64,000 nt of DNA, taken from assembly GCF_900177805.1 (NCBI RefSeq), contig NZ_FXAX01000001.1, forward strand, positions 744,001 through 808,000. Direction: 5' to 3'. This document shows, in pieces, positions 44,138 through 50,822 of the stretch. The DNA is from Fibrobacter sp. UWB13. Its GTDB lineage: Bacteria > Fibrobacterota > Fibrobacteria > Fibrobacterales > Fibrobacteraceae. Under the pieces are notes generated by a model. It made no database searches. It saw only the letters and a list, made by a program, of their open reading frames with translations, and was not told where the DNA came from. Within the stretch, counting starts at the first letter, position 1. Every line of letters begins with the position of its first letter. A program made the translations under genes and the position numbers.

Positions 44138-44707
44138 ATGAAAATCGAAAAGAAGAAAGTTACCGGAAATTCACGTTTGTCGAATGCATCCAAGGCAGGT
44201 GTTGCCTCAATGCTTGGCATGTCCGCAATTTTGATGAGCGGCTGTACAGGCGATGCTGAAAGTGGTCAGGTTATCGGCCCTGTTGAACCAGACAACAACA
44301 ATCCAAACAGCAGCGACGCCTCCGAAAGCCCCGAAATACAATCAAGTTCTTCTGTAACCGATATTCCGCTGAGCCACGAACGACTCAGCAGCGAAGCCAT
44401 CGAAGCGCTTTCTTCTTCATCTGTACAATCGCCGAGCAGTTCTTCTGTTGCACCAATTCAAAGCAGTTCGTCAGAAGAAATCGTCAGCAGCTCATCCGAA
44501 AGTTCTAGCAGCACATTTGTCGAAAAGCCCCGCAGTTCGTCGAGCGTCAAGGAAGAATCTAGCAGTTCCACAGAAGTCGTCCCACCATGGCCAAGAGATT
44601 GCAACAAAATTGATTCTATGGGCGTAAACGTCATTATGTGCCATGACGACGATGACTTTCCGCTAGTGAGCATGGTGTCCACATACGAAATGTTTGACAA
44701 TGTATAA
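44138..44707 (+). CDS. Ser-rich lipoprotein-like peptide, candidate radical SAM substrate 1
   Basis: 189 aa. It begins MKIEKKKV and a long polar n-region, then a hydrophobic segment ending in lipobox LMSGC (Cys 36). Residues ~55-150 are a linker full of SSSS blocks, including the phrase RLSSEAIEALSS. The C-terminus (~152-189) is different in composition: DCNKIDSMGVNVIMCHDDDD and then FPLVSMVSTYEMFDNV. The next gene has the same leader, the same LSSEAIEALSS phrase and a related tail, and is followed by a radical SAM enzyme. I infer a surface-anchored peptide whose C-terminal tail is modified. A preceding AAGGAGG lies 8 nt before the ATG. Confidence 0.75.
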   Translation: MKIEKKKVTGNSRLSNASKAGVASMLGMSAILMSGCTGDAESGQVIGPVEPDNNNPNSSDASESPEIQSSSSVTDIPLSHERLSSEAIEALSSSSVQSPSSSSVAPIQSSSSEEIVSSSSESSSSTFVEKPRSSSSVKEESSSSTEVVPPWPRDCNKIDSMGVNVIMCHDDDDFPLVSMVSTYEMFDNV

Positions 44708-44731
44708 GATCTGCAAGTGTTAGGGGGAACC

Positions 44732-45433
44732 ATGAAAATTGAGAAGAAGAAAGTCGTCAAAAGCTCAAAATTGAGCCATTTTACCCAAAGTGCGGTCGCA
44801 GCTGCACTCGGAATTGCGGCATCCATCGGTGCAACAGCTTGCGACGACAGTGTATCGGCAAATAGCGGAGACCATCCCAAGCAACAGCCAGAGAACGAAC
44901 CGACATGCGGACAGGCGGCATGCGGAGAACAATACAGCAGTTCCAGCTATACCGACATTTCTTCAAGCGGAGAACATCTCAGCAGCGAAGCCATCGAAGC
45001 ACTATCCTCTGCAATGCAGCCATTGAGTAGTAGCTCCATGGTGAACCCGCCGCCGGAATCGGGGTCCCCGATGGTCATGTCTTCTGAACGTCTCAGCAGT
45101 TCTTCCGTCGAAAAACCTAGCAGTTCGTCTTACGAGCCACCTCCAGAAGCAGGCATTCTCCCGCCGTACGAAGAATCCTCTTCAAGCGAAACGCTGTCAA
45201 GCAGTTCCATAGAAGAGCCCGAACCTCTCGCAGGCGACCCCATTATTACAGAAAGCAGCTCGAGCGAAAGTACGCCAAGCACACAGTCCAGCAGCAGCAA
45301 AACAGCAATCCCAGCCACTCAAACCACACCTGCCATAGATACGCTCAACCCTCGCATACACATCTGCGATGATGGCTCGTGTATGATATTCAGCATGGTC
45401 ACCACGTTCGAGCAAGACGACATTCAAGCATGA
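44732..45433 (+). CDS. Ser-rich lipoprotein-like peptide, candidate radical SAM substrate 2
   Basis: 233 aa from ATG 44732 (AGGGGG 5 nt upstream; an in-frame start 15 nt earlier lacks spacing). It begins MKIEKKKVVKSSKLS and has a hydrophobic region ending GATAC (Cys 37, weaker lipobox). A Ser/Pro/Glu-rich linker holds HLSSEAIEALSS in the same place as its neighbour, plus many SSSS blocks. The tail is RIHICDDGSCMIFSMVTTFEQDDIQA-like, aligned with the paralogue's C..DD..(F)SMV(S/T)T(Y/F)E. Its TGA overlaps the ATG of the radical SAM gene (ATGA), so the two are translationally coupled. No known family recognised. Confidence 0.75.
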   Translation: MKIEKKKVVKSSKLSHFTQSAVAAALGIAASIGATACDDSVSANSGDHPKQQPENEPTCGQAACGEQYSSSSYTDISSSGEHLSSEAIEALSSAMQPLSSSSMVNPPPESGSPMVMSSERLSSSSVEKPSSSSYEPPPEAGILPPYEESSSSETLSSSSIEEPEPLAGDPIITESSSSESTPSTQSSSSKTAIPATQTTPAIDTLNPRIHICDDGSCMIFSMVTTFEQDDIQA

Positions 45434-46521
45434 ATTTAGTCCTTTGCCTTACAGAACAATGTAATTTACGTTGTACCTACTGCTATTACAAGGAATCGCA
45501 AGCAGACCGCAAAACGGTCATGGACGACGCGACTCTCGAGCAGGCGATTAAAATCGCACTCGACCGTACGATTTTCTTTAGGCAGTCGTACTTGAACATC
45601 ACGTTCTTTGGGGGGGAGCCGCTTTTGCGAAGAGATGCTATTTATAAAGGTGTCGAATTCGCAAAGGCGGTTGTCGATGACGCGATGGACAATGGCAAAA
45701 TTTCCAAAAATTTCAGGTTGCAATTTGCAGTCAACACGAACGGCACACTGTTCGATGATGAATTTTTTGACTTTTGCGAGTGTGAGAAATTCCGCATTTA
45801 CCTTTCACTCGATGGGCCAGAATACCATCACGATATCGCCCGCCGCACCGTCAACAATACGGGAAGTTTCAAGGACATCGAAAAGCACATTCCGCGATTC
45901 GTAAAACTCGGAGCAATTGCATTAAGCACCGTTACGCGCGCCCATGTCAACACGCTTTTCGAGAGCGTTAAGTGGTTGCACGAACAGGGTTTCCAAAGCC
46001 TTACGACGAGCGTCGATTTTGATGGCAAGTGGAGCGGCGAAGATTTTGACAAGCTCGCTTTGCAGTACCAGAAAATGGCAGAGTATTGGAGAGCATGTCG
46101 CGAAAAGGGTGACAAGTTCTTCCTCGGCACAATTCATGACAAAATAAAAATAGCGCTTATCAATTCGCGATACAGGCTTTATTCGTGCCATGTGTACAAT
46201 GGAGCCATCGGAGTCGCAACAAATGGAAATATGTTCCCTTGCACACGGTTTATCACCTCAAACCCAAACACCCACTATGTGCAGGGGAACGTTTTTACCG
46301 GCTTTGACGAGACCGCTTGCGACAAAATTCGAGAATTTTTGGACAACGACAAAAAAGAATGCGAGGGGTGCGACATTCGCTACCGCTGCTGCGCGCATGA
46401 ATGCGCCTGCACGAGCTACTACACGACGGGGACAATAGAAGGAGTGTCTCCCGAAGTGTGCACGCACGAAAGAATGCTCGCAGAAATCTGCGATACATTG
46501 CTAGAAAAAATGGCGGTGTAG
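45430..46521 (+). CDS. Radical SAM/SPASM peptide-modifying enzyme
   Basis: 363 aa from ATG 45430 (ATGA overlap with the previous gene; the longer upstream frame would read into it). CNLRCTYCYY (Cys 11, 15, 18) binds the SAM-cleaving [4Fe-4S] cluster, and FFGGEPLL is the GGE motif that contacts SAM. The C-terminal SPASM region holds CHVYNGAIGVATNGNMFPC, then a cluster CEGC...CC..EC.C and a last Cys in SPEVCTHERM, expected to ligate auxiliary clusters. The family includes peptide maturases (sactisynthases, anaerobic sulfatase activators). No RRE domain is evident at the N-terminus. The adjacent Ser-rich peptides are the likely substrates. Chemistry unknown. Confidence 0.88.
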   Translation: MNLVLCLTEQCNLRCTYCYYKESQADRKTVMDDATLEQAIKIALDRTIFFRQSYLNITFFGGEPLLRRDAIYKGVEFAKAVVDDAMDNGKISKNFRLQFAVNTNGTLFDDEFFDFCECEKFRIYLSLDGPEYHHDIARRTVNNTGSFKDIEKHIPRFVKLGAIALSTVTRAHVNTLFESVKWLHEQGFQSLTTSVDFDGKWSGEDFDKLALQYQKMAEYWRACREKGDKFFLGTIHDKIKIALINSRYRLYSCHVYNGAIGVATNGNMFPCTRFITSNPNTHYVQGNVFTGFDETACDKIREFLDNDKKECEGCDIRYRCCAHECACTSYYTTGTIEGVSPEVCTHERMLAEICDTLLEKMAV

Positions 46522-48125: not shown

Positions 48126-48323
48126 AAAACCTCCACACACCGATTCCAACCCGAAATATATTTAGAAATTAGAGAGTCAAAATGCAAGTAAAAAAACAAT
48201 AGCGTTTACACGAGCAACCATTCATATAACTTTTATCACATTACAATCTGCTTATATTACCCTTTATCAAAAAACATTCTACTTGGCTAGATTAAATTTT
48301 GTCGTTTGTTATATTTGCGTTTG

Positions 48324-49118
48324 ATGAAAACTTTATTAACAATTCTACTGTTTTGCGCCACAGCTTTCAGTGCAAATTTAAACTTGCACGATACTGTTTT
48401 TGTGGAACAAATTGTCCGCGATACCGTTTACATTCCGATAAAAGCAAAAACCGATACGATTTACATCAAGAACACCGCGGTAGCCAAACAACAATTGCAA
48501 GAGAAATGTTGCACACCGACCGAACGCAATCCACTCGGAGAAGACACCACAAAATTTTTACGTTACGACACAAGCTACACGCACCATTCTGTTTATTTGC
48601 ACTTTGATATTGTTTCGTTTCTCTGGCTCATGAGCGATTCTACGCTTACATCTGTTGGCGGGAATTTGGAAATTGCCGGAAACCGCAAAAATTCTTTTAT
48701 GATGAATTTCCGTTACAGTAAAAAAATTCCTTGGGGAACATCCAGTCATATTTATAATGGTTACATCGCGCAATACGATATTGGCATTGGCTACCGCCAT
48801 TATTTTAGACCGTCAAAATACAGTGGCTTTATTGATATCGGAGGAAACTGGCTCATCCGCAAACACGACTACGACAACACCTGGGACAACACAAACCTCA
48901 TCAACGACAGACCGCACAGCAGACACGAAAACGCTTATTTATACTCCCCTTATATACACAGCGGACATATTTTCAGAGGGGACCGCAATGTTTTCAGCAT
49001 TGAATATGGTTTAGCCTACAATTTCACAGACAAGGAATTGCTCAACAAGCAATATTCCTACATTACCGGCGGGCTTCAGCTTGACATCAGGATAAACTTT
49101 GGCGTGGGGATTTTCTAA
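48324..49118 (+). CDS. Secreted barrel-like protein with DTVY motifs, 1 of 3
   Basis: 264 aa from ATG 48324. Signal peptide MKTLLTILLFCATAFSA. Mature N-terminus has repeated DTxY phrases: HDTVFVEQ, RDTVYIPIK, TDTIYIKN. The C-terminal ~170 residues have alternating aromatic strands (SVYLHFDIVSFLWLM, GGNLEIAGNRKNSFMMNFRY, GFIDIGGNWLI) and finish with FGVGIF, like an outer-membrane barrel end. Family not recognised. Overlaps the next gene by TAATG. Confidence 0.72.
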   Translation: MKTLLTILLFCATAFSANLNLHDTVFVEQIVRDTVYIPIKAKTDTIYIKNTAVAKQQLQEKCCTPTERNPLGEDTTKFLRYDTSYTHHSVYLHFDIVSFLWLMSDSTLTSVGGNLEIAGNRKNSFMMNFRYSKKIPWGTSSHIYNGYIAQYDIGIGYRHYFRPSKYSGFIDIGGNWLIRKHDYDNTWDNTNLINDRPHSRHENAYLYSPYIHSGHIFRGDRNVFSIEYGLAYNFTDKELLNKQYSYITGGLQLDIRINFGVGIF

Positions 49119-50017
49119 TGAAGTTCAATCGATTTGGTTTAATTTTCGCTGTATTTTTCGCCATCGCCATTAGCCCAGCGTTGGGTATAACCGACACGGT
49201 CTATGTTCAAAAAAGAATCACAGATACGCTTTACGTAGTATCCCCGCCTGATACCGTCTACATACAGGAAACGGGCTTTCAAGCAAGCAACGATAATGAT
49301 CAGCAAGCTAAAACAGCCGAACACAACGAAGCATTTAAAAGTACAACTAAGCCTGTAAAGAACAAATTCATCACGGAATATAGTACCGACACCATTCCGC
49401 CTGCAAATAAATTATACATCGGCGCCATAACAGGTCTTACCCTATTTTCGATATGGTTTGGAGTTTCCATGCTCGACTTCGATTACGAAATAGAAAACTC
49501 GTACAGAGGTTCGCTCATGTTTAATTTATCTAGCATCATCCTATTTTATGAACACCCAATTGGTCAAGAAGACCGTTCGTGGGAAGGTTTTAGAAGCATC
49601 TTTAGCCCAGGTATCGGATATCGCCAATACTACCTCACATTTACAACAACTAAAGTCAACCCGAAAAAGCACCCCGTAAAATTCAGGAACACTCCGCTAA
49701 ACAGTATTTCCTTCTACATCCAGACCATGGCAAGTCCCGCATTTAAGATAGCCTACGACAAGAAATATAAAAGCGCCGACCCCAAAAAAGGAAGTATCGA
49801 TGTCGGCATTGCCCCAAGCGCCACACTGGGCATGGCTTGGAACGCCGAAAACATGCTTTGGTCATTTGGGTTCATTGTCGGTTATCAATACTGGGGCGAT
49901 AATTCTCGTAAATACCTGACTCATGATCCTTATCGAGAAAAGACGACATACCGTTTTATGAATGGATGGTGCGCCAAAGGATTGTTCTTTGGAACAGATG
50001 CTAAAATAGGATTCTAA
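49118..50017 (+). CDS. Secreted barrel-like protein with DTVY motifs, 2 of 3
   Basis: 299 aa. Signal peptide ends near SPALG. TDTVYVQKR, TDTLYVVSPP and DTVYIQETG mark the same N-terminal motif, then a linker of ~60 polar residues, then barrel-like strands (YIGAITGLTLFSIWFGVSMLDF, SFYIQTMASPAFKIAY) ending in DAKIGF. Start codon shares one base with the stop of the upstream gene, and the third paralogue follows after 1 nt: an operon of three. Function unknown. Confidence 0.72.
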   Translation: MKFNRFGLIFAVFFAIAISPALGITDTVYVQKRITDTLYVVSPPDTVYIQETGFQASNDNDQQAKTAEHNEAFKSTTKPVKNKFITEYSTDTIPPANKLYIGAITGLTLFSIWFGVSMLDFDYEIENSYRGSLMFNLSSIILFYEHPIGQEDRSWEGFRSIFSPGIGYRQYYLTFTTTKVNPKKHPVKFRNTPLNSISFYIQTMASPAFKIAYDKKYKSADPKKGSIDVGIAPSATLGMAWNAENMLWSFGFIVGYQYWGDNSRKYLTHDPYREKTTYRFMNGWCAKGLFFGTDAKIGF

Positions 50018-50018
50018 T

Positions 50019-50822
50019 ATGCGACATACACTAGCTTTTATTTTCATCTGCGTTGTTTGCGCGTTTTCACAGGAACGAATCGTAGATACAGTCTACACGG
50101 ACACGCACAAGGTAACATACGTTATCGACACGGCAAAGGCAACTTCTGAACGCGCCGAACATACCGCAACATCCACACAACAAGAAGCACTCCCGCAACA
50201 AGAGGAAGTTGCAGACACATTCGGATTAAATGCACCGCCAAACAATTCAAACAGAGTGACACTTCTTTTGGTCGCACAAAGTTTAAGTTTTTCTTTAAGT
50301 TATGAGCACCTGTTCGCAGACTTCTGGAGTTTTGCACTGAGATTCGGTTATGACGGATTCAACAGCAAGAACATTCGCGAAAACACAGATGCCGAAGGAA
50401 CCATACAGACTTTTGCCGTTCCGCTTGCATTGAGATGGCATTGGGGGCGACGTAACATCGGCAGTTATAGCTATGTGAGCATCAATGGCGAAAACCACCA
50501 TAAAAAAAATCGTCAGTTAGAAGGCTTTATCCAGGCACAAATCGCCCCTGTTCTATACAATATAGACTTGCACCGAGATTCAAGTTCTTACAAACAAGCG
50601 CTAAACCTTAAAGAAAAAGAATACGCCCTATATTACACACTCGGATTTGGCTTCAATTACTGCTACGAACATTTCATTTTCAGCACAGAAATAAACATTG
50701 GTACATTTATCCAAAAGCCAAAATTTCAAGAACACACACAAGTTTACAGGAGCCGATATGGCACACGACTTTTGGACAAGACAATCGCTGAAAGCGTTCT
50801 CGCCATTGGCTGGATGTTCTAA
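50019..50822 (+). CDS. Secreted barrel-like protein with DTVY motifs, 3 of 3
   Basis: 267 aa. Signal peptide MRHTLAFIFICVVCAFS. RIVDTVYTDT follows directly, then a Thr/Glu/Gln-rich linker. Strand-like segments (VTLLLVAQSLSFSLSYEHLF, SFALRFGYDGFN) end in VLAIGWMF, a terminal aromatic as in outer-membrane barrels. It is convergent with the 50841 gene. Same operon as the two genes before. No enzyme motif seen. Confidence 0.72.
   Translation: MRHTLAFIFICVVCAFSQERIVDTVYTDTHKVTYVIDTAKATSERAEHTATSTQQEALPQQEEVADTFGLNAPPNNSNRVTLLLVAQSLSFSLSYEHLFADFWSFALRFGYDGFNSKNIRENTDAEGTIQTFAVPLALRWHWGRRNIGSYSYVSINGENHHKKNRQLEGFIQAQIAPVLYNIDLHRDSSSYKQALNLKEKEYALYYTLGFGFNYCYEHFIFSTEINIGTFIQKPKFQEHTQVYRSRYGTRLLDKTIAESVLAIGWMF

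Follow-up and report, generated by a model that had tools for sequence, protein, structure and literature searches.

The genome of Fibrobacter sp. UWB13 carries two adjacent genes for serine-rich lipoproteins, and the second of them overlaps the start of a gene for a radical SAM enzyme. The question raised by this arrangement is whether the enzyme modifies the two lipoproteins and, if so, at which residues. The window, by which we mean the whole stretch of DNA analysed, covers 64,000 nucleotides of contig NZ_FXAX01000001.1 (positions 744,001 to 808,000), and all coordinates below are those of the window unless another contig is named. We consider the best explanation to be a three-gene modification unit in which both lipoproteins are modified by the enzyme and then displayed, with a C-terminal tail derived from an older motif as the main core, and we put the probability of this reading at roughly 55%. 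The features on which the argument draws are the following.

44138-44707, plus strand: gene for lipoprotein 1, 189 aa, precursor-like, with an AGGAGG ribosome-binding site, the lipobox MSGC, the leader and the tail
44138-44161, plus strand: MKIEKKKV leader of lipoprotein 1, conserved in the leaders of the window's subclade
44258-44290, plus strand: ESGQVIGPVEP in lipoprotein 1, an older-type xG motif just past the lipobox
44600-44704, plus strand: C-terminal Cys-containing region of lipoprotein 1 with the tail SMVSTYEMFDNV (tail proper 44669-44704), which matches 75 distinct tails
44732-45433, plus strand: gene for lipoprotein 2, 233 aa, precursor-like, with an ATG start, an AGGGGG ribosome-binding site, the lipobox TAC and a stop codon that overlaps the enzyme start
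44732-44755, plus strand: MKIEKKKV leader of lipoprotein 2
45053-45244, plus strand: three older-type motifs in the poly-Ser linker of lipoprotein 2, PESGSPM (45053), PEAGILPP (45143) and PLAGDPI (45224)
45365-45430, plus strand: CDDGSCMIF and the tail SMVTTFEQDDIQA of lipoprotein 2 (tail proper 45392-45430)
45430-46521, plus strand: gene for the radical SAM enzyme, ATG start, 363 aa, with a SPASM-like C-terminal domain and no N-terminal RRE

The two lipoproteins are paralogues. Each begins with a signal composed of a basic n-region and a hydrophobic stretch followed by SGC or TAC, the lipobox being called by pattern here as in the rest of the subclade's set, and each carries LSSEAIEALSS at aa 83 together with poly-Ser linkers. 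They end in CHDDDD...SMVSTYEMFDNV and CDDGSC...SMVTTFEQDDIQA, respectively. The stop codon of lipoprotein 2 and the start codon of the enzyme share the sequence ATGA at 45430-45433. The GTG at 44717, given by the open reading frame lister as the start of lipoprotein 2, is superfluous, as the AGGGGG ribosome-binding site precedes the ATG at 44732. The original prediction had described the paired genes, their common leader, lipobox, LSSEAIEALSS and tail, and the overlapping enzyme gene, and all of these were found in the sequence; it had also stated that the other poly-Ser lipoproteins of the window (2882 and 10729) lack the leader, which is correct, and the tail is missing from them too. Lipoprotein 1 orthologues adjoin the enzyme in other Fibrobacter.

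Leader and tail are not chance resemblances, because the leader pattern has exactly two matches in the 3.8 Mb genome and its reversed control none. The tail pattern has three matches in the same genome, and only the two window sites are left when a downstream Asp is required; the third (L135, G000:C1:1982638) is a MotA/TolQ-type protein with TGMVSTFE and is a chance homonym. The neighbours of the locus are ordinary genes, namely those for the large and small subunits of acetolactate synthase (ilvB/ilvH) upstream and a convergent GH8 glycosyl hydrolase downstream. Within the unit we saw neither a dedicated protease nor a dedicated transporter, and Pfam and NCBIfam returned nothing meaningful for both lipoproteins and seven other partners. 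Elsewhere in the window, three consecutive genes at 48306-50822 encode apparently secreted products with similar DTVY-containing starts, possibly a paralogous series, and the minus strand at 676-1257 encodes a SlyD-like prolyl isomerase whose tail is rich in His and Cys and probably binds metal.

The enzyme belongs to the radical SAM superfamily, with a PF04055 score of 59.9 bits against the Pfam cut-off of 29.5 and with the motifs CNLRCTYC and FFGGEP. In an alignment of 21 diverse members, C11, C15 and C18 are invariant, as are nine further cysteines (C253, C271, C311, C314, C320, C325, C327, C344 and C354). The SPASM pattern CX9-15GX4C...CX2CX5CX3C...C is matched in part by C253-X12-G266-X4-C271, C311-X2-C314-X5-C320 and C344, all present and invariant, with C320-X4-C325 in place of the X3 spacing; PF13186, the SPASM model, scores 17 bits against a cut-off of 21.5. 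C327 and C354 are invariant cysteines additional to the seven of the SPASM pattern. The AlphaFold2 model of the enzyme (pLDDT 89.8) matches CteB with a Z-score of 34.9 and 25% identity over 337 residues, followed by ChlB (Z 30.3), anSME (Z about 30) and TigE (Z 25.9). All four of these proteins modify peptides or proteins, a point that we count in favour of the enzyme being, on balance, probably a modifier of lipoproteins. The peptide epimerase EpeE is a weaker match (Z about 13), and the model may be said neither to favour nor to exclude epimerization. An RRE, which is common but not obligatory in RiPP systems, was not found in the enzyme; the radical SAM motif already occupies residues 11-18 of 363, leaving no space for one at the N-terminus.

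Orthologues were collected from 80 genomes of the genus Fibrobacter, many of them metagenome bins, and from public contigs. This gave 107 distinct full-length enzymes of 46-100% identity, nearly all from Fibrobacter, whose counts are not phylogenetically independent and whose conservation is measured over modest divergence within one bacterial family. A phylum-wide profile search added five enzymes from three sister genera; past the Fibrobacteraceae it gave no full-length orthologue at E 1e-20, only partial radical SAM matches. Plasmids held only distant maturases, all below 30% identity among the matches listed, and viral contigs likewise, with a best segment of at most 34%. At two loci in metagenome bins (L127 on G078:C14 and L126 on G075:C3) the enzyme is split between two frames, possibly through assembly error.

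The enzyme tree, rooted at its midpoint, divides the 107 sequences into clades of 74 and 33 with an SH-aLRT value of 100, and the two clades keep different company. A poly-Ser lipoprotein abuts the start of the enzyme in 74/74 members of the larger, lipoprotein-linked clade (70 recognized by script, and 4 from an SMV tail read immediately ahead of the enzyme) and in 0/33 members of its sister. In 33/33 of the latter, a ribosome-binding site and a small, Lys-rich, signal-less protein (69-183 aa, mean 16% Lys) begin 11-40 bp downstream of the enzyme. An open reading frame with the same properties occurs in only 3/72 loci of the lipoprotein-linked clade, where the three products resemble flavin-reductase-type enzymes and not the Lys-rich partners. 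Among the sister genera, four of the five enzymes have lipoproteins before them and one is directly followed by a Lys-rich protein. Read from these neighbourhoods, at least one change of partner type has taken place within the enzyme family, in a direction that the midpoint-rooted tree leaves unsettled. The Lys-rich partners are hypervariable at L112, L107, L116, L105, L092 and other sister-clade loci; several have Lys/Ala-rich ends resembling H1-type DNA-binding proteins, with G[I/D]P in an apparent interhelix loop.

Within the window's subclade each unit holds one to four different precursors with a common leader and tail, as expected for substrates of one enzyme. The fold in common with anSME would also suit an enzyme whose real substrate is something else, a sulfatase or small molecule for instance, and to which the lipoproteins are mere neighbours. 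This we regard as very improbable given that every enzyme of the one clade has a lipoprotein, and every enzyme of the other a Lys-rich protein, immediately beside it. Moreover, the script did not find ilvB/ilvH in 10/32 subclade loci with sufficient upstream DNA; the linkage of enzyme and lipoprotein is therefore probably more than frozen synteny. The original prediction was of a surface-anchored product; anchoring is inessential to the family as a whole, since the partners in the sister clade are not lipoproteins.

The original prediction had staked itself on leader and tail being conserved beside orthologues of the enzyme and had singled out the residues of the tail for comparison. It survived this check: besides the unbroken series of abutting lipoproteins, the 75 distinct tails of the window's subclade are nearly invariant. 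S, M, T and D reach 100% in them, E reaches 97%, and every tail has a Cys 4-15 residues upstream of SM. In the distinct leaders of the subclade M, I, E and K are found at positions 1, 3, 4 and 5 in 100%. Pairwise identity is 0.74 in the tail, 0.86 in the first 8 aa of the leader and 0.23 at leader positions 9-14, in precursors of 168-278 aa. The tail pattern occurs in 45/80 genomes, all of them among the 46 that hold the window's enzyme subclade (the two lists were compared by hand), and its reversed control gives 0 in every genome; the 46th genome has SMATTFE, which lies outside the pattern. A stray match in genome G052, on a different contig and encoding MVCTFE, looks like chance.

The Cys upstream of SM and the invariant Asp found in each tail invite the idea that the enzyme is a ranthipeptide maturase forming PapB-like thioether links from Cys to Asp/Glu in the tails, which would be compatible with the best explanation. 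PapB (NF047865) is the best NCBIfam match of the enzyme, at 209.9 bits, and CNKID and CHDDD in lipoprotein 1 both fit the PapB motif CX3D (PMC9413430). That score is far under the curated cut-off of 340, however, and with this and the Cys-less partners membership of the PapB family was rejected. The repeated CX3D/E of PapB substrates is not seen in the tails, where the spacing from Cys to the acidic residue is irregular, and the mature part has no Cys in 13/20 subclade C lipoproteins, 4/4 sister-genus lipoproteins and 23/33 Lys-rich partners. Because Cys is absent from most partners beyond the window's subclade, thioether formation is not the chemistry of the family and would be specific to the subclade at most; even there we think it rather improbable.

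Beyond the window's subclade the picture of the tail changes. Subclade C, the sister clade and the sister genera all lack the SMV tail. Lipoproteins of the sister subclades and genera still begin with a comparable leader and have the lipobox and, for the most part, the poly-Ser, but they end in different tails, based on xG[DIVE][PVI]. The small subclade B has tails of the form SM[PA][ST]x[VI]GH[IV]xxP, in which SMx[ST] is common to the tails of the window's lipoproteins and Gx[IV]xxP to the older motif. As the sister genera lack the SMV tail, while xG[D/I/V/E][P/V/I] recurs there and in both partner types, the tail is clade-specific, and it is best read as the newest core. The proposal that the tail is the core may hold for the window's subclade, where it is nearly invariant, but not for the whole family, in which sister subclades and genera have other tails.

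The older motif xG[D/I/V/E][P/V/I] recurs in lipoproteins, in Lys-rich partners and in the sister genera. Lipoproteins of subclade C and of the sister genera are strings of such units (PLAGDPIEP, SAGILPP, TSGEVIPP, PEAGVIAMPESSSS), and the motif accounts for 48-49% of all their Gly. With a single regular expression, composed after the sequences had been seen, subclade C has 114 sites against 24 in shuffles, the sister genera 15 against 3.6 and the window's subclade 72 against 35, about twofold. The control, a small set of seven further poly-Ser lipoproteins from about 470 kb of this genome, has 3 sites against 2.9. An independent check on this enrichment was provided by an EM search with no preset motif of 23 non-redundant Lys-rich partners, which found mainly G-[I/W]-[P/I]-[G/V] with a log-likelihood of 101.9 against 60-65 in six shuffles.

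This enrichment, and the motif of the same kind in the sister-clade partners, would also be explained if the lipoproteins are substrates in which the tail serves for recognition (as a follower) or for sorting and the modified sites are the xG[D/I/V/E][P/V/I] turns of the linker, as elsewhere in the family. Lipoprotein 2 of the window has three or four motif sites, sister subclades retain leader, stalk and enzyme but have no such tail, and recognition of a C-terminal motif is known from one MNIO subfamily (PMC12636315), all of which argue for it. However, 21/69 lipoproteins of the window's subclade have no motif and all have the tail, the enrichment in this subclade is only the twofold one given above, and the element Gx[IV]xxP lies inside the subclade B tails themselves. 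We consider this alternative unlikely, though the most serious of those discussed here.

In the preferred reading, with the tail as main core, the enzyme (45430-46521) would be made by translation coupled to that of its putative substrates, and both lipoproteins would be modified by it in the cytoplasm. Passage through Sec, lipidation and cleavage at the lipobox Cys would come next, and the poly-Ser stalk would then display the lipoproteins on the surface. The conserved N-terminus, doubling as the n-region of the signal peptide, would guide the choice of substrate. In the window's subclade the nearly invariant C-terminal tail would be the main modified core, probably descended from the older short core motif xG[D/I/V/E][P/V/I], and the remaining enzyme family would still use the older motif, either in lipoprotein linkers or in signal-less Lys-rich proteins. 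Modification of the tail and recognition of the long leader were both part of the original prediction; they are inferences here as well. As in RiPP systems, ribosomal precursors are encoded beside a modifying enzyme, and they combine a conserved leader at the N-terminus with a putative core that is likewise conserved.

A bolder proposal, which we put forward tentatively as possible rather than likely, is that this radical SAM family, confined to the Fibrobacteraceae, performs a new, Cys-independent modification at xG[D/I/V/E][P/V/I] turns. Its target would have moved between surface lipoproteins, with multiple sites spaced by poly-Ser, and signal-less Lys-rich proteins, and would have been rebuilt as the SMV[ST]T[FY]E tail in the window's line. 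If true, the Cys-independent reading would make this a radical-SAM lipidated RiPP with a traceable substrate change. The about 110 enzymes, with their adjacent candidate substrates sorted by clade, form a panel for both the chemistry and the change of substrate. The literature searched held no paper on the window locus and no Fibrobacter product of such a kind; an RNA-seq study of acid tolerance in F. succinogenes lists radical SAM genes by locus tags that could not be matched to the window enzyme (PMC5442110).

Several known systems resemble parts of this unit. The original prediction had pointed to reported pairings of radical SAM enzymes with lipoproteins in Bacteroidetes, and such a pairing exists: it is TIGR04133 (rSAM_w_lipo), in which, as in the window, the radical SAM gene adjoins one for a poly-Ser lipoprotein. 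Two genuine TIGR04133 genes are present in the same genome (625 and 596 bits), but the window enzyme, at 25.1 bits against a cut-off of 425, is not of that family. They lie at G000:C1:162439-163488 (L203, L209) and G000:C1:845431-846480 (L204, L210), each beside a poly-Ser, Cys-rich lipoprotein that, unlike those of the window, has neither the MKIEKKKV leader nor the SMV tail. These lipoproteins, with their Cys-rich tails (e.g. CTYKYTCNDGVTC), are matched by no NCBIfam model and likely represent an unmodelled partner family. TIGR04134 (lipo_with_rSAM) has no match in the genome, nor in an hmmscan of the two window lipoproteins, and this model matched none of the controls either.

The PapB maturases (NF047865) and the SCIFF maturase CteB share with the window enzyme its fold and best sequence match, and their genes also lie beside that of a candidate substrate. 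The window enzyme differs in having no N-terminal RRE region, its SAM motif starting at residue 11, and the partners of its family are lipoproteins of 168-278 aa, mostly Cys-free outside the window's subclade. ChlB (PDB 9gm3) and TigE (PDB 8vpo) are full-length structural matches with 17% identity. ChlB aligns from its residue 8 and the window enzyme from residue 1, and as ChlB was solved with its substrate leader bound, it suggests by analogy how so short an enzyme could bind a leader.

The closest parallel in the fate of the product is with the DAG-RiPPs DybA and NedA, which are lipidated RiPPs, RiPP-lipoprotein hybrids made by MNIO iron enzymes (PMC12636315). Among bacterial RiPPs, precursors that carry a Sec signal peptide have been described as a rarity (PMC12452194), and lipidated RiPPs have been demonstrated only recently, for MNIO enzymes, with the authors expecting others (PMC12636315). 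The window unit resembles the DAG-RiPPs in the signal-peptidase-II signal of the precursor, found by pattern in the two lipoproteins here and across the subclade's set, in the conserved C-terminal motif and in cytosolic modification followed by lipidation, both of which are only proposed for this unit. It differs from them in its maker, a radical SAM enzyme instead of an MNIO, in its long poly-Ser stalks and in having several precursors per unit. The locus is a candidate for a system that works like a RiPP-lipoprotein hybrid with a radical SAM maker. The unit would then be the radical-SAM version of the MNIO-type hybrids, and it is a strong candidate for the radical-SAM counterpart of the lipidated RiPPs, in rumen fibre degraders that act by surface contact.
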